IMG/VR virus record: IMGVR_UViG_3300008050_007803
Coordinates: 1 to 37,002 of that record
From: a virus
Length of the DNA: 37,002 bases
Strand: one strand, 5' to 3'
Part shown: in pieces, positions 2 to 34,316 of the stretch
Layout of the letters: each line of letters begins with the position of its first letter
Position numbering within the stretch: the stretch's first letter is position 1
The notes under the pieces: generated by a model
Told to the model about the DNA's origin: nothing
The model's database searches: none
What the model saw: only the letters and a program-made list of their open reading frames with translations
Translations under genes and position numbers: made by a program

Positions 2-649
2 GACAGTGTTAGTTCAGATATGGGTACAAAAGCGCGCGCAATGAAGACATTAATGCAAACTTGTACAAATTTAGGGTCAGTTACACAAACCACTATCCTA
101 TGTACTAATCATGTCTATGATGACCCAACAGCTCTGTTTCCTTCTATTGAAAAAAATATGCCAGGTGGTAAATCATGCATTTATCTTCCATCAGTAACAG
201 TTCAACTAGCACGCAAGCCAATGAAATCAGATGGCGGTAAGACTGTTGATGGGGAATTGGCAGTTGGTCAGAAAAAATACGCTGGAATTATTATTAGAGC
301 CCTTACGCGTAAAAATAGATTTATTAAACAGTACCTTGAAGGTGAAATATACCTTTCATTTGCTTCTGGACTTGATCGCTACTATGGATTAGTTGATCTG
401 GCCGTTGGTGTTGGTGCAGTAGTTCAAACTGGAGCAACTTATCAGCTTGAAGATGGTACTAAGCTAGGCTATTATAAGAATTGGAGGAAGGATGTTAAAC
501 TTTGGGAAGAGACTATTCTTCCAAAACTTGAAGAACGAATTAAAGATGAGTGGTCTTATAGTAATAAAGAAGAAGAGCCACCTGATGAATTAGGTTTAGA
601 TGGTTTAGATGATTTAATTAATGAAAAAGAAACTAGTACTGACTCTTAG
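2..649 (+). CDS. uvsX: UvsX/RecA-like recombinase, 3' part
   Basis: This is the C-terminal part of a T4 UvsX-type recombinase, which forms ATP-dependent filaments on single-stranded DNA for strand exchange and recombination-dependent replication. The frame is open through the left edge. It begins with the end of a Walker B-like strand (DSVSSDMGTKARAMK), so the internal ATG at 20 is not the true start. Seen motifs are the loop TILCTNHVYDD, then PGGKSCIYLPSVTVQLARKP, matching the UvsX core after Walker B. The C-terminus is acidic (EEEPPDELGLDGLDDL), as is common in phage recombinases and a likely contact region for mediator or gp32-type partners. Walker A lies outside the window. Its end overlaps queC by 29 nt, so the two are probably cotranscribed. 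Confidence 0.88.
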   Translation, partial: DSVSSDMGTKARAMKTLMQTCTNLGSVTQTTILCTNHVYDDPTALFPSIEKNMPGGKSCIYLPSVTVQLARKPMKSDGGKTVDGELAVGQKKYAGIIIRALTRKNRFIKQYLEGEIYLSFASGLDRYYGLVDLAVGVGAVVQTGATYQLEDGTKLGYYKNWRKDVKLWEETILPKLEERIKDEWSYSNKEEEPPDELGLDGLDDLINEKETSTDS

Positions 650-1379
650 TGGGGGAATGGACTCATCTGTGCTGTTGTATATGGCACAAGATAGAGGCTA
701 TGATCATATACATACCATAACCTTTGACTATGGTCAAAGGCATAAACAAGAACTCGCTTGTGTTAAAAAACAAATTAATAATTTTAATAACATGTTTAGC
801 GGGTGGTTTAATTTAAAGATTACTAATAAGGTCTTAGATGTAAAGTATATTAAAGACATTGCGCCTACCTCATCTTTAACTAATAAAGATATTGATAATC
901 CTAATATTAGCGAGATGGCAGGTGATGCACAGCCTGTCTCATACGTACCGTTTCGGAATTTAATGTTTCTATCTATTTGCTCGTCATATGCTGAAAGTGT
1001 AGGTGCAGATACAGTATGGTATGGTGCTGCACAGGTTGATTCACTAGCTGGGTATTGGGACGGTAGTGAAGAGTTTGTTAATGTAGTTAATGAAGTAACA
1101 GATCTTAATAGAGAGAACAGAATTAACATTGAAGCACCGCTTCTTGACATGTCGAAGGCTGCAATTGTTAAAGAAGGAATTAGACTAGGAGTTACATATG
1201 GTGATACATGGACATGCTATTCGAATAGAGAAGATGGGCTAGCTGATGCCACAACTCCGTCAAGTAGTATGCGAATAACGGGGTTTATTGATGCTGGGTA
1301 TGAAGACCCTATTCAATATGTCCAACAGGAAAAGTTGGATGACCTATACAAAGAAAATAACTGCAAGGAGTGTGCTTAG
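621..1379 (+). CDS. queC: QueC-like 7-cyano-7-deazaguanine (preQ0) synthase with altered zinc site
   Basis: This is an ExsB/QueC-family PP-loop ATPase. The family converts 7-carboxy-7-deazaguanine to preQ0 using ATP and ammonia. Phages use preQ0 pathways to make 7-deazaguanine bases that shield their DNA from restriction. Visible motifs are the PP-loop SGGMDSS (residues 10-16), TFDYGQRH (34-41), VPFRNLMFLS (109-118), the GYWDG segment (144-148), ENRINIEAPLLDMSKA (165-180) and DTWTCY (195-200). Canonical QueC has three more zinc cysteines just after the TWxCY cysteine. Here residues 201-247 contain none, and Cys returns only at 248 and 251 at the extreme C-terminus (NCKECA). Length, 252 aa, is slightly above the usual 220-240. 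The start overlaps uvsX, and the stop overlaps the convergent minus-strand gene by 4 nt. No QueD, QueE, FolE or DpdA gene is in the window. Confidence 0.85.
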   Translation: MKKKLVLTLSGGMDSSVLLYMAQDRGYDHIHTITFDYGQRHKQELACVKKQINNFNNMFSGWFNLKITNKVLDVKYIKDIAPTSSLTNKDIDNPNISEMAGDAQPVSYVPFRNLMFLSICSSYAESVGADTVWYGAAQVDSLAGYWDGSEEFVNVVNEVTDLNRENRINIEAPLLDMSKAAIVKEGIRLGVTYGDTWTCYSNREDGLADATTPSSSMRITGFIDAGYEDPIQYVQQEKLDDLYKENNCKECA

Positions 1380-2791
1380 AGACCGTAGCGTCTAAGCTCT
1401 TCTAGCTGCCAGTGTGTCTTAGGCTTGTATTTTTCCTTAAATGACTGACTTTTAACTTCAGTCAGTTTATTACGTTTGTCAGAAGCTACTTGCTCGTTAA
1501 TATAACGGGAAGTATCGGTTTGATGTGAGTCGAGCATTGGACTGTAACTAAAGTCCTCTTCTAGTGTCTCTTCATTCTCTCCATTTAATTTCTTTTTTGC
1601 ATGCTCTCTTTTATCATCATCGACAAGAGCATCTAAAACATCTTCGTAATCGGTTGAAGGGATATAATCCTCCGGCTGCTCTTTAGTTAAGAAATGATCA
1701 AGCTCTAAGCCACCAAATTCATCATCCTCTTCATCACTGACATTTGCTCTAAACTGACATCTTTTTTTAGCTAACTTTGATGGAGGCGATGCACAATACT
1801 GACTCATTGACTCACCAGCTGCTTTTGCGGCTCTAGTTAAAGCGCCTTCTGTCCCCTTCTTCTTCATACCCTTAACTGCACCCTGAATCCAATCTTCATT
1901 ATCTTCTGGTGTAGTAAGACCACCTCCCTCTTCACCCATTGAATACTCATCAGGCATACCCTCCGGTTCGTCTATTCCATAACCCACTTGCTCATCTTCG
2001 TCTGGAGCCATAACAACAACTACACTATCACTAATTTTATCAACGTCTCTCTTTAGCGCTGCTTCAATCTTATCAATACCGTGTGCTATAACTGCTTTAG
2101 CAAGCGGCGTTCCAGGGTCAACTGAAAACTGTACAGTATCATTACTAATATCTAAACCATCCTCATTAGCATACTTAGAAACGATATTACCGACATCTTC
2201 AACACGCTCAGCATCTCTAATTTTAATCTCAATAAAGGTAGTTGGATCTGCTTTTGAATCTTCTAAGCTTTGCGCTAATTCTTGTTCTGCGTCATCCAAC
2301 TGACCAACTGTATCTTCAACCGCGTCCCCTACATCTGCACCTGCTTTAATATCCTTTGCGAGCTCTATAGCAGCTTTTTGCGCCGCGTATTTTTCTTCTC
2401 TTCCTCTATTAGTAGTAGCTCTATTAATATACGTCGCGAGACCGTCTTTTATTGCATCAGCAATCTCATCTTTACTTTTTTCAATTTCTCTTTCCTTAGA
2501 ATCTAATAAAGCTAATAAGTTATTCTTTTTAGCAGAAAACCCTGTACCCCTTTTCGCAGCATTCAATTCTTCATCACTAATTACCTCGAGATCATATAAT
2601 ACCGTTCTAATAAAGTTAATTGTATCTAATGGTGCAGAACTAAACCCCGCAGATCTTAGCTCTCTTGTAACAGGACCGAAAGAAGGGTGATATTTTTCAT
2701 AAGGAGATTTTTTAGCTTCCTCGAGAAACTCTGACCTGTTGAATAAATCATTAAAGCCACTAAAATTGTCGGTGTAGTTAAAGGAACTCAT
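1376..2791 (-). CDS. hypothetical acidic protein, probably late/virion-associated
   Basis: This 471-residue protein is not recognised. It is strongly charged and acidic. It has predicted helical stretches (about residues 85-185, rich in Ala, Glu and Lys), a more structured middle (about 180-270, with TFIEIKIRDAERVEDVG and SVVVVMAPDEDEQ), and a low-complexity Asp/Glu/Gly segment (about 270-300). There is one Cys pair region (QYCASPPSKLAKKRC) and a basic C-terminus ending in LEELRRYGL. It lies antisense inside the plus-strand replication cluster. A perfect TATAAATA motif begins 7 nt upstream of its ATG, which suggests late expression like the structural genes on the same strand. No Shine-Dalgarno is seen. 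A head or tail accessory protein is possible, but that is only an inference from its promoter and strand. Confidence 0.75.
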   Translation of the reverse strand: MSSFNYTDNFSGFNDLFNRSEFLEEAKKSPYEKYHPSFGPVTRELRSAGFSSAPLDTINFIRTVLYDLEVISDEELNAAKRGTGFSAKKNNLLALLDSKEREIEKSKDEIADAIKDGLATYINRATTNRGREEKYAAQKAAIELAKDIKAGADVGDAVEDTVGQLDDAEQELAQSLEDSKADPTTFIEIKIRDAERVEDVGNIVSKYANEDGLDISNDTVQFSVDPGTPLAKAVIAHGIDKIEAALKRDVDKISDSVVVVMAPDEDEQVGYGIDEPEGMPDEYSMGEEGGGLTTPEDNEDWIQGAVKGMKKKGTEGALTRAAKAAGESMSQYCASPPSKLAKKRCQFRANVSDEEDDEFGGLELDHFLTKEQPEDYIPSTDYEDVLDALVDDDKREHAKKKLNGENEETLEEDFSYSPMLDSHQTDTSRYINEQVASDKRNKLTEVKSQSFKEKYKPKTHWQLEELRRYGL

Positions 2792-2797
2792 TTAATA

Positions 2798-2805
2798 TAT
2801 TTATA
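2798..2805 (-). promoter_or_regulatory. T4-late-type promoter TATAAATA
   Basis: A perfect minus-strand TATAAATA lies 6 nt from the ATG at 2791. In T4 this octamer is the late -10 element read by gp55 sigma with gp33 and the gp45 clamp. The predicted start would fall at or next to the ATG. Confidence 0.65.
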
Positions 2806-2808
2806 TCT

Positions 2809-3261
2809 ATGAAGCTGAATTATAAGGATTTTAACAAAATGACTGAAAAAGAGCTGTGTAAACTACCAGGAGTAGGAAGAACCACAGCTAGACGTATTGT
2901 TGGATTTAGACCTTTTCGTCATAATGACGATTTATTTAAAGTAAAGGGACTAGGGAAAAAGACACTTAAAAATTTGGGAATTCAAAAAACCAAAAAGAAA
3001 AAGAAAAAATGGTATACCATCGATGGTGTCGATTACCCAGATTGTGCACTGGCTAGAGATACGAGATACGGTCACATTGATCTGTTTTGGAGAGTACCTA
3101 AAGAACACCGGGAAAGTATAGGTCCCCCATCCCCGTGGATACTCAGAAATCGTCGTATAGATGAAAAGACAAGGGCAGAAGGGCCTGATGGGCTTATGAG
3201 TAGGTACGTCGACAACTCTTTTATGTGGGAACCAGGGTTTAAATTTCCATGGGAAGATTGA
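2809..3261 (+). CDS. helix-hairpin-helix DNA-binding protein
   Basis: This 150-residue protein begins with a tandem helix-hairpin-helix unit, a non-sequence-specific DNA-binding fold. The first hairpin is LCKLPGVGRTTARRIVGF (about residues 16-33). The second is LFKVKGLGKKTLKNLGI (about 44-60). The layout resembles the ComEA/UvrC/PolX HhH pair. A lysine-rich linker (residues 61-68) follows, then an unrecognised domain of about 80 residues rich in aromatic and charged residues (TIDGVDYPDC, WILRNRRIDEKTR, FMWEPGFKFPWED). No nuclease or polymerase motif can be confirmed. It sits between the divergent late-type gene at 1376-2791 and the amidotransferase gene. No Shine-Dalgarno precedes the ATG. 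A DNA-repair or DNA-modification accessory role is possible but not shown. Confidence 0.75.
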   Translation: MKLNYKDFNKMTEKELCKLPGVGRTTARRIVGFRPFRHNDDLFKVKGLGKKTLKNLGIQKTKKKKKKWYTIDGVDYPDCALARDTRYGHIDLFWRVPKEHRESIGPPSPWILRNRRIDEKTRAEGPDGLMSRYVDNSFMWEPGFKFPWED

Positions 3262-3290
3262 TTACCTCGTAAAATATATTAACATATGTT

Positions 3291-3953
3291 ATGTGCGCTA
3301 TTTTTGGATCGTTCGACAAAACAATGTTAGAGATTTTATACCAAGCTAATAAGGAGCGTGGTAATTTTGCTAGCAGCGTTGTATGCATATCAGATGATGA
3401 TCAATATATCTCTAAACATGAAGGTGATATAAATTTTGATAAGTTTAATTATGCTGGTAGGGAAAATATAGAATATCTTCTTGGGCATGTACAGGCACCT
3501 ACTTCCGCTAAAAGAACCTGGAACTACAACACATCTCACCCATTCGAATCTCTGACATGGCTGGTTAGTCATAATGGTGTTTTAACAAATGAGAAAAAAC
3601 TAAGAAGAAAACATACAAGATTTTTAGAAAATCCCGTTGATACAGCGGTAATAGTTGAACTATTAGAAAAATTTACTCAGGTAAATAAAAACCCAGTTAA
3701 TACCATAAAGCAAGTATTATCAATGTTAGAGGGGTCGTATGCTTTAAGTATGGTGCATTCTAATACTAACGATATCTATATAGCGAGAGTAGGGTCACTT
3801 CTTCACTATAATAATAAGGGCAACTACTCTACAATGATGGGATCCGGTTATAAAATATTACCTGAAGGAATTATAATGAAGTTAAATAAAAAAACAAAAC
3901 GATGGAATAAAGTAGGCACTTTTGAATCCAAGTCACCGTTTACATTTGTATGA
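3291..3953 (+). CDS. stand-alone class II glutamine amidotransferase
   Basis: This is an N-terminal-nucleophile (class II, GlmS/PurF-type) glutaminase domain, which releases ammonia from glutamine for a partner synthase. The start is MCAIFGSF, so Cys2 becomes the nucleophile after Met removal. Other family features are GHVQAPTS (65-72), SHNGVLTN (93-100, oxyanion Asn/Gly), VDTAVIVELL (116-125, Asp117 for the glutamine amino group) and LEGSYALSMV. The whole protein is only this domain of 220 aa, with no sugar-isomerase, phosphoribosyltransferase or synthetase domain, so the ammonia acceptor must be another protein. The Arg that binds the glutamine carboxylate in GlmS/PurF (GHxR) is Gln68 here. 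Its stop overlaps the next gene's start (ATGA), implying translational coupling to the glycosyltransferase. QueC, another ammonia user, is 1.9 kb upstream. Confidence 0.82.
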   Translation: MCAIFGSFDKTMLEILYQANKERGNFASSVVCISDDDQYISKHEGDINFDKFNYAGRENIEYLLGHVQAPTSAKRTWNYNTSHPFESLTWLVSHNGVLTNEKKLRRKHTRFLENPVDTAVIVELLEKFTQVNKNPVNTIKQVLSMLEGSYALSMVHSNTNDIYIARVGSLLHYNNKGNYSTMMGSGYKILPEGIIMKLNKKTKRWNKVGTFESKSPFTFV

Positions 3954-4609
3954 GTAAAACATTTATATTTTCTGCTACAGCAGGTAAAAAAGAAGACTCA
4001 ATGCTTTACAATACGTGTAAAGATGAAAATATCGACATCTTTATAAAAGAGTATAATAAAGAGTCTATACAAAAAACCTACAACAAGGCGATTGATTTTT
4101 CAATTAGGGAAGGAGTTAAAAACTTAGTATTAGTTCATGACGATGTAATACTCGAAGCTTTTTCTGAAAGAAGAATTGAAAGAAATTTTAAAAATTTTGA
4201 TCTAATTGGTGTAGCTGGCTGCAATCAGGTCAAGCTCGAAAAGCCAGTTCTCTGGCATTTAATGGGCGGTGGCTTCGACTCCGGTAATTTAGTAGGCGCA
4301 GTTGCCCACGGTACTGAAAATCAAAAAAATATGGGAGGGTTTGGATTTTATCCAAATAGAGCTATTTTAGTAGACGGAGTTTTTCTCGTAATTAAAAGAA
4401 AAGTATTTAAAAAAATTAGATTTGATGAAACCTGTCCTTCTAAATGGCATTTTTATGATCTTGATTACTCTATGCAGTGTCATAAAGCCGGCTTTAAAGT
4501 TGGAGTCGGCGACTTTATTGTAACTCATAAATCCCCCGGTCTTACTTCTTTTACTGAAGAATTTCAGAAGGGCGAAGATTGGTTTTTAGATAAGTGGAAA
4601 ACCGAATAA
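3950..4609 (+). CDS. glycosyltransferase, StrF-like GT-A domain
   Basis: This 219-residue protein looks like the single-domain glycosyltransferases of the StrF type (GT-A fold). Signature pieces are a strand followed by LVLVHDDVILE (about 60-69), where the acidic pair can act as the metal/nucleotide-sugar motif, then DLIGVAGCNQ, a Gly-rich middle (HLMGGGFDSGNLVG), and the C-terminal acceptor-side segment WHFYDLDYSMQCHKAGFKV with THKSPG. No membrane segment or signal peptide is visible, so it should act in the cytoplasm. The acceptor is unknown: modified DNA bases, a virion protein or a nucleotide sugar are all open. It starts within the amidotransferase stop codon (ATGA). This couples the two genes and suggests a shared pathway such as an amino-sugar or a modified nucleotide. 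Confidence 0.72.
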   Translation: MSKTFIFSATAGKKEDSMLYNTCKDENIDIFIKEYNKESIQKTYNKAIDFSIREGVKNLVLVHDDVILEAFSERRIERNFKNFDLIGVAGCNQVKLEKPVLWHLMGGGFDSGNLVGAVAHGTENQKNMGGFGFYPNRAILVDGVFLVIKRKVFKKIRFDETCPSKWHFYDLDYSMQCHKAGFKVGVGDFIVTHKSPGLTSFTEEFQKGEDWFLDKWKTE

Positions 4610-4627: not shown

Positions 4628-5935
4628 GTGAGTAAGTTAGACTTAGACTATTTTGAAAATGTTCTTATATATAAGTCCCTTACAGATAGTGGGTATTTGG
4701 CTTCTATTGCTGATTTTGTAAAGCCTGAATATTTTAAAGATAAAGCGATCGCTAGTATCTTTAATATTATTAAAGACTTTACAGAAAAAAGAAATAAGCT
4801 TCCAACAACGACAGAGATTAAGTCTTACTTAGTATCAGATGAACAAAAGAACTCTTTTAAAGAGCTCGTTAAGACGTTTAGTGATATTGATAAGACTCTA
4901 GATAAAGAAGAACTATATGATAATACGGAACAGTTTCTTAAAGAGAAGGCCGTATATCATACAATGCTTAATGTAGCAGAAGATGTATCAAAAGGTAAAG
5001 TTGATACATCAGTCGTTTTAGATAAATTTGAAAAATCATGCAACATTAATTTAGTAACTGATTTAGGACTAGAACTGTATGGTGATGTTGATAAGCTTAT
5101 TGATGATCTTAACTGTGTTGAAAGATATGTTCCAAGTAAATGGGAGTGGTTAGACAATTGTCTCGGAGGCGGTTTTTTAGAAGCTGGAAAAGCTTTATAT
5201 GTGTTTGCTGGTGAGACAAATATTGGTAAGTCAATATTTTTGGGTAATATTGCCAGTAATATGGCTGAAGATGGTAAAAACGTTTTGTTAGTTACTTTAG
5301 AAATGTCTGAGCTGTTATATGCTAGACGAATTTGTAGTAACGTTACAAAAATTCCAATGAAGCAGTTAGCTGAAAATGCACCTAGTATTAAACAGGCTAT
5401 GAATGATCAAGGTGGTAAAATTTTTATTAAAGAGTTTCCACCTGCCACTATTACGGCTAATCAATTAAAAGCGTTTGTTAAGAAGTTTCAAGAACAAGGC
5501 ATTAAGCTAGATGCTATTGTATTAGATTACCTAAACTTGATGCACTCACCTGTAGGTAATAACTCTTATGAGCGCATTAAACATGTAACTGAACAGGTAC
5601 GTGCAATGAGCTATTTGTTTAACTGTCCTATTATTTCAGCCACACAGTTAAACCGAGCTGGGTTTGATACAGATAACCCTGATCTAGCAACAATTTCTGA
5701 ATCTATCGGGTTGGCGGCCACTGCTGATGCTATTATATCTATCTTTCAAAATGAAGAAGATAGAGGAATTGGAGTCATACGCTTAGGTATGATGAAAAAC
5801 CGGTATGGTCCGCGTGGTATTACACAAGCTATGAGAATCGATTATAATACGCTAACAATCGAACAAGCTGATGATATCGAAATAGATGAAGATATGGATA
5901 ATACTCTTAATGTATTAGCTGGGCTTGCATCATAA
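4628..5935 (+). CDS. 41: replicative DNA helicase, DnaB family, T4 gp41-like
   Basis: This is the hexameric 5'-3' replicative helicase that unwinds the fork and carries the gp61 primase. The 435-aa length is close to T4 gp41 (about 475). The N-terminal helical domain (about 1-140) leads to the RecA-like core. Core motifs are Walker A GETNIGKS (195-202), LVTLEMSELLYARR (221-234) with the catalytic Glu225, Walker B AIVLDYLNLM (296-305), the sensor SATQLNR (337-343), and a late basic finger-like MMKNRYGPRG (388-397). The start is GTG at 4628, chosen because the protein begins there with a plausible helix and the preceding gene has just ended. AAGG lies directly before it but too close for a standard Shine-Dalgarno. 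It is followed by the DHH phosphoesterase and gp32, consistent with a replication operon. Confidence 0.93.
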   Translation: MSKLDLDYFENVLIYKSLTDSGYLASIADFVKPEYFKDKAIASIFNIIKDFTEKRNKLPTTTEIKSYLVSDEQKNSFKELVKTFSDIDKTLDKEELYDNTEQFLKEKAVYHTMLNVAEDVSKGKVDTSVVLDKFEKSCNINLVTDLGLELYGDVDKLIDDLNCVERYVPSKWEWLDNCLGGGFLEAGKALYVFAGETNIGKSIFLGNIASNMAEDGKNVLLVTLEMSELLYARRICSNVTKIPMKQLAENAPSIKQAMNDQGGKIFIKEFPPATITANQLKAFVKKFQEQGIKLDAIVLDYLNLMHSPVGNNSYERIKHVTEQVRAMSYLFNCPIISATQLNRAGFDTDNPDLATISESIGLAATADAIISIFQNEEDRGIGVIRLGMMKNRYGPRGITQAMRIDYNTLTIEQADDIEIDEDMDNTLNVLAGLAS

Positions 5936-26229: not shown

Positions 26230-28356
26230 TTAGTAATCCAGACCTCCACCGTCTGGGTTTAGTTCTTCAAATTCAGCGTCTCCTAAGACAATATTACCGA
26301 AAAAATCATCATCTGGTGAAGCTTCTAACTCATGTGATGTGTCTGTTATACTGTTTAAAACTTCTTGTTGTAAGTTAAATAACTGATCTATTACACGTGC
26401 TACAACGCTATAATCCACTGCTTCATTTTCATGAAACTCCATGTCTCTAAAATTAATATCTGTACCTTTATAAGTGGTGTAATCTCTTAATACAGGTATA
26501 CCATCAGAGACGGTTTCAGCAGGTATAACACTAAGATTTAAAAATATTTTTACTGTATCTTTAATAATATTTTGAATTTCACTATTTAAAGAGCTTCCTA
26601 AACTAGATTCACAACTAGTTATTTTTTCATATAAATTCTCAAGATCTAAGGGCACGAAGTTTTGATACAGTAAGTTACTTTCTTTAAACAAGTATATACG
26701 ACCAATAGTATGCAGTAAGAAAAATAAGTCTGTTTCATTCTTAGCAACGAGGTAATTTATATAATTAAAATAGTTAGATCTTAATGTATTTGAATTAAAC
26801 TTTTTCTGTATCAAATTAAATCTCTCACCTGTATTATCAAAATACATATCAGGTAAATAAAGCAAATTTTCAGGTGAAGCAAACCCAGCAACCTGCGTTG
26901 GATTTGATATAAATCTAGTCGAAATAAACCCCTTATCGTTTAATATAAACATATTAGAGTCGTTTTGCGAAAAATATACATCTATATCTTCTTCCCTCGC
27001 CGCAAAACCGTAGTTAGGCCTATACCGGCGGACGATTTTTGGCTTTAATTTAGGTCCTAAGTTAGTTATATTTTCTGCATTAATATGGTATAATAAAAAT
27101 ACATTAGAATTCCCATCCGAAACACTGTTAATCTTTTCTGGGTCATTATTAGCCAATCCACCGGCATTTGGATCTATATCTTGAACAGCCATCTCACCGG
27201 CTCCTGGTTCTGTTAAGATCAATATAGAATCATCCGTATCTCTTATATCAAATGCAATTATTTCCTCGTCAGCGTCTATCGTTGTTATAGTTTTAATTAA
27301 TTTATTCGAATATTTGTTTCTAATAGCAATATAAGATATGGTTTCAGTTTTATCTGATAAACTGTTAATTTCTTCTTCACTTAAAATATCTTCATCAAAA
27401 GTTCGAACACCACGAACAGGGGGCAGCTCTTCTATTTCAACACCAGGTCTTGGAGCCCCGAGAGGTATTATTTCATTATATCGATACCCTAATAAATCCT
27501 TACCTATCTTTACTACCTCGTCTATAATTTGCTCTTGTATTTCAATCCTGTCAACCAGTTTTAATTTTTTACAAGGATTAACAAAACTATTATCATATAA
27601 ATTAAGCTGTATTTCATTCGTACCAGCAGACAAGCTATAAAGTATATCGGTTGAATTATCGTATGTGAATCTAGTAGAACCTTTAAATAAACTTTCCCCG
27701 GTATCCTCATCCGGTGTAATAGGTATAAAATTACTATTTTTTACAAAACTTCCAGAGAACGTGTGAGCAGCTGTTGGTGTGGTAGTAAAATAAAAATATG
27801 TCTCATCGTCGTACACAAATAAAGTGCTATCAATTGTGTCATCCAATACATTAATACCGGGTACCTTATCGATAAAGCTAAAAGGATCTATTTGAATGGG
27901 AAATAGATTATCTTTAGCCATTTTTGTGTCATCATTTCGTATATCAAACTGACCACTAGATAGCCCTAAAAAATATGCATTTCCATCTGATGCAGAATTT
28001 TTGAAATTTAATAAATCCGTATTTGAGGTAATATTTAATGCATATAAATTTAAATTGTTTTGATTTAGTATGCCTAAGTTGGTTTCAATAAAAGACTGAT
28101 CGACAACACTTCTAGGTGAAACAACAGGCTTTGTTAGTATATTAGACTCAACAATTGGTGTTGCTGTTCTATCAAATTCTAACTTCTCTAGTACACAGTT
28201 AGCATAAAAAGTATCTGATGATTTTAAAATCTTTGAAGATGTTGAGAAAGTTTTACCGGTGTAAGCAACACCGTCTCTTACATTGACAAACCCAGAGTAG
28301 GGAATCCCGCTTAAAGTAAACGAACCAGTAGTGGTGTATTTAAAGTATTCAATCAT
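26230..28356 (-). CDS. large hypothetical virion structural protein
   Basis: This 708-residue protein has no recognised family. It starts with a beta-rich segment (YFKYTTTGSFTLSGIPYSGF). It goes on with many Asp/Asn/Ser-rich strands that look like a beta-propeller or repeated sandwich (TLFVYDDETYFYFTTTPT, FIPITPDEDTGESLFKG, NVFLLYHINAENITNLGPK). It ends in a helical part (about 600-670) and an acidic tail (ASPDDDFFGNIVLGDAEFEE). Its ATG overlaps the upstream stop by 4 nt with no late motif, so it is translationally coupled to the 28353-30725 gene. The pair probably forms one tail or baseplate substructure. Confidence 0.75.
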   Translation of the reverse strand: MIEYFKYTTTGSFTLSGIPYSGFVNVRDGVAYTGKTFSTSSKILKSSDTFYANCVLEKLEFDRTATPIVESNILTKPVVSPRSVVDQSFIETNLGILNQNNLNLYALNITSNTDLLNFKNSASDGNAYFLGLSSGQFDIRNDDTKMAKDNLFPIQIDPFSFIDKVPGINVLDDTIDSTLFVYDDETYFYFTTTPTAAHTFSGSFVKNSNFIPITPDEDTGESLFKGSTRFTYDNSTDILYSLSAGTNEIQLNLYDNSFVNPCKKLKLVDRIEIQEQIIDEVVKIGKDLLGYRYNEIIPLGAPRPGVEIEELPPVRGVRTFDEDILSEEEINSLSDKTETISYIAIRNKYSNKLIKTITTIDADEEIIAFDIRDTDDSILILTEPGAGEMAVQDIDPNAGGLANNDPEKINSVSDGNSNVFLLYHINAENITNLGPKLKPKIVRRYRPNYGFAAREEDIDVYFSQNDSNMFILNDKGFISTRFISNPTQVAGFASPENLLYLPDMYFDNTGERFNLIQKKFNSNTLRSNYFNYINYLVAKNETDLFFLLHTIGRIYLFKESNLLYQNFVPLDLENLYEKITSCESSLGSSLNSEIQNIIKDTVKIFLNLSVIPAETVSDGIPVLRDYTTYKGTDINFRDMEFHENEAVDYSVVARVIDQLFNLQQEVLNSITDTSHELEASPDDDFFGNIVLGDAEFEELNPDGGGLDY

Positions 28357-31341: not shown

Positions 31342-34316
31342 AGTATTAAAGCCGCAGCAGATAGAGGTGATGGTGATACATACGTCGCCGTTAATGATGG
31401 TATGGCTGAAGATAAAACAAAGTTCAAATTATTCAGATTGCGTGTGTTAGAGGCAGATTCCGCAAAAGTAAATGTAAACCTACTGTTGTTACAGACATAA
31501 ACTTCAGAATTTAAAAATTTAATATCATCTACGTATTCAAATAGATAATTAAACAGCACCGGCCCTTTGTTTTGATCTTTTAGTATAACCCCCAAGTTAA
31601 ATTGCTCGTTATCGCTACTATACGTTAACAAGGGCTTGCTACACTCTATATAAGCAGCATCGCCCCCTGTTAGATTTAAAAATGCAGCAGAAGACACTGC
31701 TGGGTTACCTGTTGTAGGAAATATTTGTACACTCTTATCATCGATGTAACTATACTTGTAAATTTCTGGGTAAAATCTATCTCCCTTATATCCTAGCTGG
31801 TCTCTCGCCATCCTACAGTAAAACACATCATCCTCTACCTTTAACCTATTACTTACTTTATCAAAAAAGTTTGTATTTATAGTGAGAGAATTAGTAAACG
31901 TTCCTGGGCTAACAAACCTTTCGTCTTTATATGAAGTTCGCTCAACAACTAAATAACCACTGGTTTCAATAAACAACGTGCTATAAAAAATATCAAAATT
32001 AGTTACCGCGGAAGAAAGTTCGTTACAAACTGCGGTGTTGTATTTTGTAGAGAGATATGATAACCACTCTGTAAGCTCTTTTACAGCAGGGGTATTCCAC
32101 GCTGTATTTGTATTCTTTAAATAAATTTTGCCTAGGTGGTCTTGCTTATTAAAGAAGCTTTCTTTTGCTGATGTTACATTAGATATTGTAGTTTTAGAAT
32201 CTACATTTGCGTTATACTCAAAACTCTCTTCATTAGGCGTGTAGTTAAATACTATATTATCTGTGAACCGCATTCCGTCATAGTTTTTAACATCATTTCC
32301 GGAATTACCAGAGCCACCAGATAATCGTACATCATAAGTAAAATTACCTGTTAAATCATCTGTCCATGTATCTGTAGGATCACATAATGCTGTGAATAAA
32401 GTTTTGCCGGAGTCGGCATCAACATTAAAGAGACCTATTCCGGCTTCTACTAAATCTGAAAAATAAAACTGGTCACTACTAGTTGCGTAGGCACTTAACT
32501 GAGAAATGTTTAAGTCTCCAACTCGAGTGGCACTTACAGGGTCTGTAAGAAACTCCGAATCAGAAAATTTAAAATACGCCCCTTCTTTAATATCTGCATC
32601 TAGAGTCATAGACCCAGGCCGCCCATAATCTACTTCTAGGTAGTTTGAAGGTTTTTGTAAAGTTTGATAGGGGTTAAAATACCTAGCGAATATATTATAT
32701 GCAGAGGTGGGAAAGCTTAACCAAGTGCTTGGAGTATCAGGTAGTAAACCGGACGGGCCTCTACCGGTAAAACCATTAGTAAATGTTGATAGGCCCGATC
32801 TTATAGTTTCGGAATACGTTGTCGTATCAGTTGTTTTATAAACAAAATTATAGCCCTCGCCATACAGGTCATCAAAAAATTGATAACCGTTTAATAACAA
32901 GCTTTTTATTGTTTTCGGATTTTCTTGTACAATGTTACTTCTGTAATAATTGTAATCTTTTACTAAACCAAAGATATTTCCAAATAAATCCTTTTTACTA
33001 TCATTTATATATCCTTGATCAAAAAGATAAGATAAGTCGGTGTTTAAATTCCTATCTTGTCCAATTTCAGAATTATAACCTATAAAAGCAGTACTATCTC
33101 TATCAGTATTAGGTTGATTAACTGCAATTCCTTTACTAGCATTATTAATTGATCTAGAGGTATCAATAATAAAAGTTAATACGTTTTCTGTATTTGTAAA
33201 TAAATTTGGATCCGGAAATATATATAATTGGTTAGGCGGGTAGGTCTTTTTAGTAAAGAATTTTAACCGCCGGCCTTCAATAGTTACGATTGAAGAATTT
33301 TGTGGTCTAAAGAACCCTAAATCTCTCTCACTTACAACTTCACCAGAAAACACTGAAGCTGTAGAAGGGAAGTCTTGATTTAAAAAATTAGCATATGGTT
33401 TTTCTGCTTTAAATAAAATAGGAGGTAAATTATTTTCATCCAATTCTGGCTTTCCATTTTCATCTGTGGCTAGATAATAAAAATCAGCCCCCATAAATTT
33501 TTCTGTTAGCTTCCGCTTATTATTAAACAGAGAATCGTCTGTAACATTAAAATCTAAAGTCTTACGACCTTCTTTAAGTGTAATTAAATCCTCACCAACA
33601 TTAGCAAAAACCTGAGTAATTAATGACTCATCATCAGTTAAAAATATATTATCTTTTGGTAACCCAGCCGGATCATAGCTTTTAAAGGTTTTACCGTAGT
33701 CGCCTGCTTTTGGAGACCTGTTAAAGTACTGTGAAAAATTATCAAAATACTCTGTTAGTGAGATTGATAAATCTCTTTTAATCTTTCCTATATCATAGTC
33801 TTTTGCAGCTGTGCTACGATTTTCGAGAAAGTTAATAACAAGATCTATAGCAGCGCGCTCTGCACCTAATGAACTACCCTTTACTTTAGCTTTTGTAGTA
33901 GCATAATGAAGAGTTTGGCGCTTTTTCTTATAGTATGAAATAATGTCTCTTATTTTACTACTATAAAAGGACATTGCGATCTCCATATCATATGGATCGG
34001 TAAAATCTAACTGTGTAAGAAACGTTCTTTCTGCATTAGTAGAAAAATTTAAAGTAATGTCTTTTAAAAAATCACGATACCGTTCGATAATTATATCCTT
34101 ATTATCCTTAGCTTGATTATTCGTCTGAATATTCCACCTATTAAGATAGGTGTTATAAAAGTCTGTTAAAGTTTCTGGTTGGTAAGATTCACTTACCGTT
34201 TCAATAAACTGAACAAACGAAAATGGTGTAAATTTATCTAACGCATCATCATGTTTTACATTAGGATTAGTTATAGATAAATCTACTTCAGGAAAGCCTG
34301 TAACAATAGTATCCAT
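31338..34316 (-). CDS. very large hypothetical tail/baseplate structural protein
   Basis: This 992-residue protein has no recognised family. The first 200 residues are helical (FVQFIETVSESYQPETLTDF, IAMSFYSSKIRDIISYYKKK, AERAAIDLVINFLENRS) and could be a docking module. The rest is long, polar and beta-rich with many Asn, Asp, Ser, Thr and aromatic residues (LYIFPDPNLFTNTENVLTF, KIYLKNTNTAWNTPA, GDRFYPEIYKYSYIDDKS). No enzymatic motif is seen. ATAAATA is 6 nt before the ATG. It lies between two PKD-containing proteins, with an ATGA overlap to the smaller one. A baseplate- or tail-fibre-hub role fits the position next to the gp6-like gene. Confidence 0.76.
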   Translation of the reverse strand: MDTIVTGFPEVDLSITNPNVKHDDALDKFTPFSFVQFIETVSESYQPETLTDFYNTYLNRWNIQTNNQAKDNKDIIIERYRDFLKDITLNFSTNAERTFLTQLDFTDPYDMEIAMSFYSSKIRDIISYYKKKRQTLHYATTKAKVKGSSLGAERAAIDLVINFLENRSTAAKDYDIGKIKRDLSISLTEYFDNFSQYFNRSPKAGDYGKTFKSYDPAGLPKDNIFLTDDESLITQVFANVGEDLITLKEGRKTLDFNVTDDSLFNNKRKLTEKFMGADFYYLATDENGKPELDENNLPPILFKAEKPYANFLNQDFPSTASVFSGEVVSERDLGFFRPQNSSIVTIEGRRLKFFTKKTYPPNQLYIFPDPNLFTNTENVLTFIIDTSRSINNASKGIAVNQPNTDRDSTAFIGYNSEIGQDRNLNTDLSYLFDQGYINDSKKDLFGNIFGLVKDYNYYRSNIVQENPKTIKSLLLNGYQFFDDLYGEGYNFVYKTTDTTTYSETIRSGLSTFTNGFTGRGPSGLLPDTPSTWLSFPTSAYNIFARYFNPYQTLQKPSNYLEVDYGRPGSMTLDADIKEGAYFKFSDSEFLTDPVSATRVGDLNISQLSAYATSSDQFYFSDLVEAGIGLFNVDADSGKTLFTALCDPTDTWTDDLTGNFTYDVRLSGGSGNSGNDVKNYDGMRFTDNIVFNYTPNEESFEYNANVDSKTTISNVTSAKESFFNKQDHLGKIYLKNTNTAWNTPAVKELTEWLSYLSTKYNTAVCNELSSAVTNFDIFYSTLFIETSGYLVVERTSYKDERFVSPGTFTNSLTINTNFFDKVSNRLKVEDDVFYCRMARDQLGYKGDRFYPEIYKYSYIDDKSVQIFPTTGNPAVSSAAFLNLTGGDAAYIECSKPLLTYSSDNEQFNLGVILKDQNKGPVLFNYLFEYVDDIKFLNSEVYVCNNSRFTFTFAESASNTRNLNNLNFVLSSAIPSLTATYVSPSPLSAAALIL

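Follow-up and report, generated by a model that had tools for sequence, protein, structure and literature searches.

A zinc-altered QueC and a stand-alone class II glutaminase as candidate subunits of a preQ0 synthase in a marine T4-like phage

Does a QueC that has lost its zinc site, encoded near a stand-alone class II glutaminase (GAT), make archaeosine (G+), as the fused GAT-QueC proteins of phage 9g and some archaea do, or does it make another 7-deazaguanine? This question is raised by the virus record IMGVR_UViG_3300008050_007803 of IMG/VR, which was analysed at its complete length of 37,002 bp (hereafter the window). UvsX, gp41 and gp32, found in Pfam and PHROGs scans, place the window in a T4-like phage, and its source is an uncultured marine member of this group. 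A first-pass annotation of the DNA had proposed a split GAT-QueC acting in archaeosine formation. We find that an archaeosine function is unlikely, and that the pair is best called a QueC-family variant of the synthase of preQ0 (7-cyano-7-deazaguanine), with a detached GAT, in a DNA-modification pathway of the preQ1 (7-aminomethyl-7-deazaguanine) type.

A conserved pair of QueC and glutaminase

The QueC-family protein of the window scores 154.7 bits against the NCBIfam equivalog model TIGR00364, above its cut-off of 150.3. It retains the motifs of canonical QueC (PF06508 cluster 1) SGGMDS, YGQRHKQE (YxQxHxxE), VPFRN (VPxRN) and TCY, as well as counterparts of Y35, R99, Y131 and Y189, the essential residues of E. 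coli QueC (PMC13329287). Two canonical features are altered, as the first-pass annotation had noted. The GYPDC segment with the YPDC substrate motif reads GYWDG, in which the essential Tyr and the Asp alone are conserved, and the C(x)8CxxCxxC zinc site has one Cys of four left (Table 1). GYWDGS is found in all 57 full-length family members, and the zinc motif is gone from 51 of them. CGxCxxC is retained in the loci L066, L067, L068, L071 and L072, and lost in L077 and 16 further rows of the QueC tree (support 99/94); as placed by this tree, the zinc loss is one derived event. A C-terminal CxxC is present in 35 of the 51 zinc-less members and in none of the six that keep the zinc motif. This CxxC may be a relocated metal site, although a single shared origin could also account for the correlation.

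The GAT is predicted to adopt the fold of the N-terminal nucleophile (Ntn) glutaminases (predicted local distance difference test score, pLDDT, 92.4), with GlmS/GFAT and PurF as its nearest structures in the PDB and a Foldseek match of 1.4e-11 to the GlmS glutaminase domain. It has the class II hallmarks of an N-terminal Cys nucleophile and an HNG oxyanion motif. In place of R73 of GlmS/PurF, the Arg that contacts the glutamine carboxylate, Gln68 is found across the split family, including the GATs of phages KVP40, nt-1 and pf16; those of nt-1 and pf16 share the family phrog_12378 with the window GAT. No acceptor domain is fused to it, in line with the first-pass annotation. The ratio of non-synonymous to synonymous substitution rates, calculated against L043, is about 0.11 for QueC and 0.09 for GAT, so that both genes are under purifying selection. 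Together with dozens of homologues, these values show that neither is a chance open reading frame (ORF).

The two genes lie on the same strand with a gap of 1,911 bp, the 1.9 kb given at first, which holds a minus-strand ORF (1376-2791) and an HhH ORF (2809-3261). Searches with the QueC or GAT protein as query yielded about 100 viral loci. GAT is present in 69 of the 69 viral loci that hold queC and gp41. Both genes were also found in all 28 loci spanning uvsX to gp41, a set picked by gp41 alone, and in all three transglycosylase-selected contigs with a QueC match. Because the sets share members and come from related phages, the counts show a stable pair rather than independent events. No locus in the queC/gp41-holding or gp41-selected sets has one partner alone, so dissociation of the pair is unusable as evidence.

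A second genomic context is stronger evidence of pairing than these counts. A homologous stand-alone GAT is the ORF directly 3' of queC in the Vibrio phages KVP40, nt-1, F86, D484 and VS1 and in the Pseudomonas phage pf16. This GAT is annotated as a hypothetical protein in KVP40 (KVP40.0125; L126, 9723-10331), nt-1 (L128, 25099-25707) and F86 (L358, 4217-4825), and we found no mention of it in the available excerpts of the literature on these three phages. Our results thus suggest that a GAT subunit has gone unnoticed in known phages with preQ0 or preQ1 in their DNA (dPreQ0, dPreQ1), namely the KVP40 group. Furthermore, the QueC and GAT trees contain the same two sub-clades, one of pf16, KVP40 and nt-1 and one of the marine family. 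Both are separate, with support, from the fused GAT-QueC of 9g, PaMx25 and PSTCR4 in both trees; these included the fused forms of phages only, archaeal GAT-QueC being left out, and their long branches make deeper placements uncertain. As judged from these sequences, the split GAT-QueC is well supported as a conserved pair by synteny, the second context and matching trees. Its QueC clade stands apart from the phage fused forms, and the archaeosine role that the first-pass annotation attached to the pair is opposed by the QueF enzymes, the single QueC and the dPreQ1- and dPreQ0-containing relatives described below.

Pathway genes and a candidate transglycosylase

Positions 1-36999 of the window align with positions 53801-90799 of a larger contig, G004 (98,842 bp), at 99.85% identity, so both come from the same phage. 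G004 also encodes FolE, QueD (PTPS) and a QueE-type radical SAM protein, the three pathway enzymes that the first-pass annotation had suggested looking for. Several contigs without FolE have FolE2 at the same place (GCHY-1, 2e-72 for G002). Three large relatives, G001 (197 kb), G002 (171 kb) and G003 (155 kb), each encode FolE or FolE2, QueD and QueE together with single copies of QueC, GAT and QueF. Their QueF is bimodular, with the E-S-K-S-x-K-L-Y motif and the catalytic Cys intact (ESKSIKLYFNSFNM, SNCRVTSQPDWGD). PF14489 (QueF) scored above its cut-off in G001, G002, G003, G012, KVP40 and pf16, and the match in nt-1 was sub-threshold. No second preQ0 source was found in G001-G003, and as G001 and G002 appear collinear under circular permutation, a second QueC is unlikely. 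G004 stops short of the QueF region, so we infer QueF and the transglycosylase of the window's phage from its relatives. A formyltransferase is encoded in part of the lineage (Formyl_trans_N, 8e-9).

The bimodular QueF is annotated as a GTP cyclohydrolase in KVP40 (KVP40.0123; L126, 8043-8951), pf16 (pf16_gp79; L127, 10283-11227) and F86 (L358, 2531-3442). P-loop proteins resembling AAA_28/NadR or thymidylate kinases are encoded beside QueE in G004 (31651-32409, minus strand) and beside QueF in G001 (180910-181515, minus strand); they may take part in processing the modified base or nucleotide.

The first-pass annotation saw no DpdA-type transglycosylase in the window, and our Pfam and PHROGs scans of the window ORFs likewise found none. 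As the record extends no further than the 37 kb of the window, this absence says nothing about the phage. Among 20 contigs (G001-G020), DpdA2 (phrog_10773) was not found, whereas the positive controls G021 and G022 were detected. PF01702, the tRNA-guanine transglycosylase (TGT) family, also matched nothing in 20 contigs; as it misses known DpdA and DpdA2 as well, this negative is meaningless and was discarded. A profile-profile search with shallow DpdA/TGT profiles gave no match, its positive control also being unmatched, and a search for the PHROG of 9g-type DpdA, which had no working control, gave none either. Two marine loci that bear DpdA2 (L171 and L172) have neither QueC nor GAT within the stretch examined.

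The relatives do contain another candidate. Comparison with Campylobacter phage CP20 revealed phrog_19058, a family of 258 aa without assigned function that is common to CP20 and the relatives. In its AlphaFold model (pLDDT 84.9, predicted template modelling score 0.82), the 50 best Foldseek matches are all TGTs. The top row of a VIA-align comparison is DpdA 7ui4, a DNA preQ0 insertase (Z 16.8, root-mean-square deviation 3.1, 228 aligned), tied with TGTs. The motifs LDNS, VPDV, VVQG, LLG and VDTSNP are invariant, and on an inferred mapping of residues their order appears to be that expected of TGT-type active sites. We predict that the phrog_19058 protein is a TGT-fold transglycosylase, and its gene context suggests that DNA rather than tRNA may be the target. 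Of 80 loci retrieved with it, 77 have a NadR-like kinase, 74 QueF and 27 a formyltransferase at a distance of at most 10 kb, often as overlapping genes. There are at least 378 matching stretches of the phrog_19058 gene, and its link with QueF, seen in dozens of marine viral contigs, predicts DNA modification in uncultured phages. The CP20 enzyme, and with it the phrog_19058 protein, could correspond to the DpdA3 that Cui et al. (2023) reportedly describe, together with fdPreQ1 and DpdN.

What the pair makes

Taking these results together, QueC and GAT probably form an amide-dependent preQ0 synthase that feeds QueF, so that a preQ1-type base can be inserted in the DNA. The two proteins would be subunits of one ATP-dependent enzyme. 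The phage-encoded FolE or FolE2, QueD and QueE would provide 7-carboxy-7-deazaguanine, and the N-terminal Cys of GAT would cleave an amide donor (L-glutamine, presumably). QueC would receive the ammonia, adenylate the carboxylate and convert it through 7-amido-7-deazaguanine (ADG) to preQ0. The phage QueF would reduce preQ0 to preQ1, which the short TGT-fold transglycosylase from the QueF region would exchange for guanine in phage DNA, yielding dPreQ1. Where a formyltransferase is present, a formylated form of preQ1 might be made, which is a guess. The modification would likely serve to escape host restriction. This scheme builds on the genes found, on how often they occur together, and on their motifs, trees and predicted folds, from which a physical complex, the transfer of ammonia and the product would follow.

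QueF converts preQ0 to preQ1 and needs the nitrile preQ0. The sole QueC must therefore yield preQ0, unless the host supplies it. The first-pass annotation had suggested that this QueC acts on preQ0 rather than making it, which does not agree with a single QueC with intact catalytic residues and with QueF in G001, G002, G003 and G012. In Schizotequatrovirus 6E351A, a phage of the KVP40 group with FolE-QueD-QueE-QueC-DpdA-QueF, 15% of dG is replaced by a nucleoside with the mass of dPreQ1 (PMC12028318). The DNA of nt-1 contains more dPreQ0 than dADG, with a trace of dG+ (PMC6884629), and nt-1 encodes QueC and GAT but no QueF above the cut-off. The presence of dPreQ1 in 6E351A and mainly dPreQ0 in nt-1 fits an amide-dependent synthesis of preQ0 better than one of archaeosine. 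We take F86 and D484, in both of which GAT was seen and whose deposits are of a seawater and oyster mix, to be from the same collection as 6E351A.

Several observations weigh against this reading. Known QueC uses free ammonia and does not depend on a GAT. Two ORFs, one of them on the opposite strand, separate queC from GAT in the window lineage. Gln68 in place of the glutamine-carboxylate Arg makes the amide donor of GAT uncertain. QueF and the transglycosylase are unseen in the window's phage, whose contig ends before that region. Finally, some dADG and a trace of dG+ are also present in nt-1 DNA (PMC6884629).

The most direct alternative is a split archaeosine synthase, in which QueC and GAT aminate preQ0 (or activated ADG) to the amidine G+. 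We consider this unlikely, although the pair consists of the same two domains as the fused GAT-QueC, both lack the YPDC cysteine (AYPDN in the 9g type, YWDG here), and the trace dG+ of nt-1 agrees with it. Besides being one chain rather than separate genes, the fused proteins keep the full zinc motif and the glutamine-binding Arg, whereas the window pair has lost both; for the phage 9g protein, dG+ is the demonstrated product. The separation of the split pair from the phage fused forms in both trees, the QueF of those relatives that reach the QueF locus, the lack of a second preQ0 source beside the single QueC of G001-G003, and the dPreQ1 of a KVP40-group phage with QueF (PMC12028318) all argue against an amidine product. 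Alternatively, the zinc-less YWDG QueC could stop at the amide, with ADG itself being inserted as dADG. The alteration of two conserved QueC features would suit such a truncated reaction, as would the dADG of Campylobacter phages (cited in PMC6884629) and the short TGT-fold homologue of CP20, which has no QueF match. However, QueF in the relatives needs the nitrile, and the CP20 QueC retains its zinc cysteines, so the QueC alteration does not track dADG; this product seems quite unlikely.

It is similarly improbable that GAT stands beside queC by synteny only and serves another enzyme, such as an amino-sugar step with the adjoining glycosyltransferase (3950-4609). This would fit its nearest solved structures, GlmS/GFAT and PurF, and the glycosyltransferase that follows GAT in 64 of 69 loci. 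Yet GAT is retained in loci without a detected glycosyltransferase (L060-L065, L077), and in KVP40, nt-1 and pf16 it follows queC within a 7-deazaguanine cluster in which no glycosyltransferase is annotated. A firm placement with aminosugar or nucleotide enzymes, which the first-pass annotation had named as speaking against its proposal, was not found: GAT lies outside GlmS, PurF and AsnB in the tree, in which the basal split is weak. Protein conjugation (deazaguanylation, as by Cap9/QatC) instead of base synthesis is very improbable. QueC-family enzymes are capable of it (PMC13329287), but YxQxHxxE, VPxRN and the essential Tyr, which are absent in QatC (PMC13329287), though Cap9 retains variants, are kept here, and the lineage encodes a complete base-biosynthesis pathway that includes QueF and a TGT-fold protein.

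Like the window family, the Schizotequatrovirus cluster (KVP40, nt-1, F86, D484 and VS1) and pf16 have a QueC with the YWD motif, a homologous stand-alone GAT, and FolE and other pathway genes, with QueF in KVP40, pf16 and F86. Unlike most window-family members, KVP40, nt-1 and pf16 have retained the zinc cysteines. They use DpdA2, whereas the window lineage has the short TGT-fold protein, and GAT is directly downstream of queC in the KVP40 group and pf16 rather than 1,911 bp away. CP20 (Firehammervirus), also T4-like, encodes its TGT-fold homologue beside a NadR-like kinase, as the relatives do, but its QueC is canonical and no adjacent GAT is annotated. With the canonical QueC of E. coli and B. 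subtilis, the window protein shares the PP-loop, YxQxHxxE, VPxRN and the essential Tyr, and differs in YWDG, the lost zinc motif and the GAT partner. Both the zinc motif and YPDC count as hallmarks of QueC. As a conserved phage family under strong purifying selection has lost the zinc cysteines and still provides the sole QueC of a complete pathway, these natural variants offer a way to test what zinc does in nitrile formation. More tentatively, and with considerable doubt, this QueC could be free of zinc, or hold it at another site, and could have come to depend on a detachable Ntn amidohydrolase that lost the glutamine-carboxylate Arg and maybe uses another amide donor. It would then serve as preQ0 synthase in a widespread lineage of uncultured marine phages, in which a minimal TGT-fold enzyme would exchange most genomic guanines for preQ1 or its formyl derivative.

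Features of the window and neighbouring genes

Table 1. Positions of QueC, GAT, their motifs and flanking genes in the window.
Feature	Position	Strand	Basis or remark
QueC-family protein, 252 aa, PP-loop ATPase, predicted preQ0 synthase subunit	621..1379	+	PF06508 1.5e-52; TIGR00364
SGGMDS ATP pyrophosphatase loop, residues 10-15	648..665	+	Motif table
VPFRN, residues 109-113, including the Arg essential in E. coli QueC	945..959	+	Motif table; PMC13329287
YWDG replacing canonical YPDC, residues 145-148	1053..1064	+	Essential Tyr retained, Cys gone
Former zinc site: Cys199 retained, other three Cys replaced by D209, T212, S215	1215..1265	+	Alignments
CKEC (CxxC) at QueC C-terminus	1362..1373	+	Possible relocated metal site; correlation only
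Stand-alone class II (Ntn) glutaminase, 220 aa, predicted ammonia supplier to QueC	3291..3953	+	GATase_6 2.5e-8; phrog_12378 6e-10
Cys2, N-terminal nucleophile once Met is removed	3294..3296	+	Invariant, 31 sequences
Gln68 at the glutamine-binding Arg position of GlmS/PurF/AsnB and phage fused GAT-QueC	3492..3494	+	HVQAPT versus HVRYPT; invariant Q, 31 sequences
HNG oxyanion-hole motif, residues 94-96	3570..3578	+	Invariant, 31 sequences
Asp117, conserved glutamine-binding Asp of class II GATs	3639..3641	+	Invariant, 31 sequences
UvsX recombinase, 3' part	2..649	+	phrog_97 1.3e-24; overlaps queC start; syntenic anchor
Glycosyltransferase Glyco_tranf_2_5	3950..4609	+	Overlaps GAT stop codon; retained in 64/69 loci
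gp41 DnaB-type helicase	4628..5935	+	DnaB_C 5.3e-28; downstream syntenic anchor

The nearest isolates by gp41 are merely about 30% identical. The minus-strand ORF between queC and the HhH gene encodes 471 aa and is hypervariable among relatives; identity is often limited to a short conserved stretch, though within the close clade the gene stays at the same position. DNA is a possible substrate of the glycosyltransferase that follows GAT. A long stretch of sugar-type genes occupies about 15.7-31.6 kb of G004 (L110-L115), in which inspection by eye indicated ORFs like GDP-mannose dehydratase and fucose synthase, glycosyltransferases and an asparagine-synthetase-like protein (26500-27813). The two ends of G001 (1-7.3 kb and 188.8-196.6 kb) show homology at an identity of just 77-84%, and contain nrd genes and a second transglycosylase fragment; their divergence perhaps reflects a strain mixture or paralogues.

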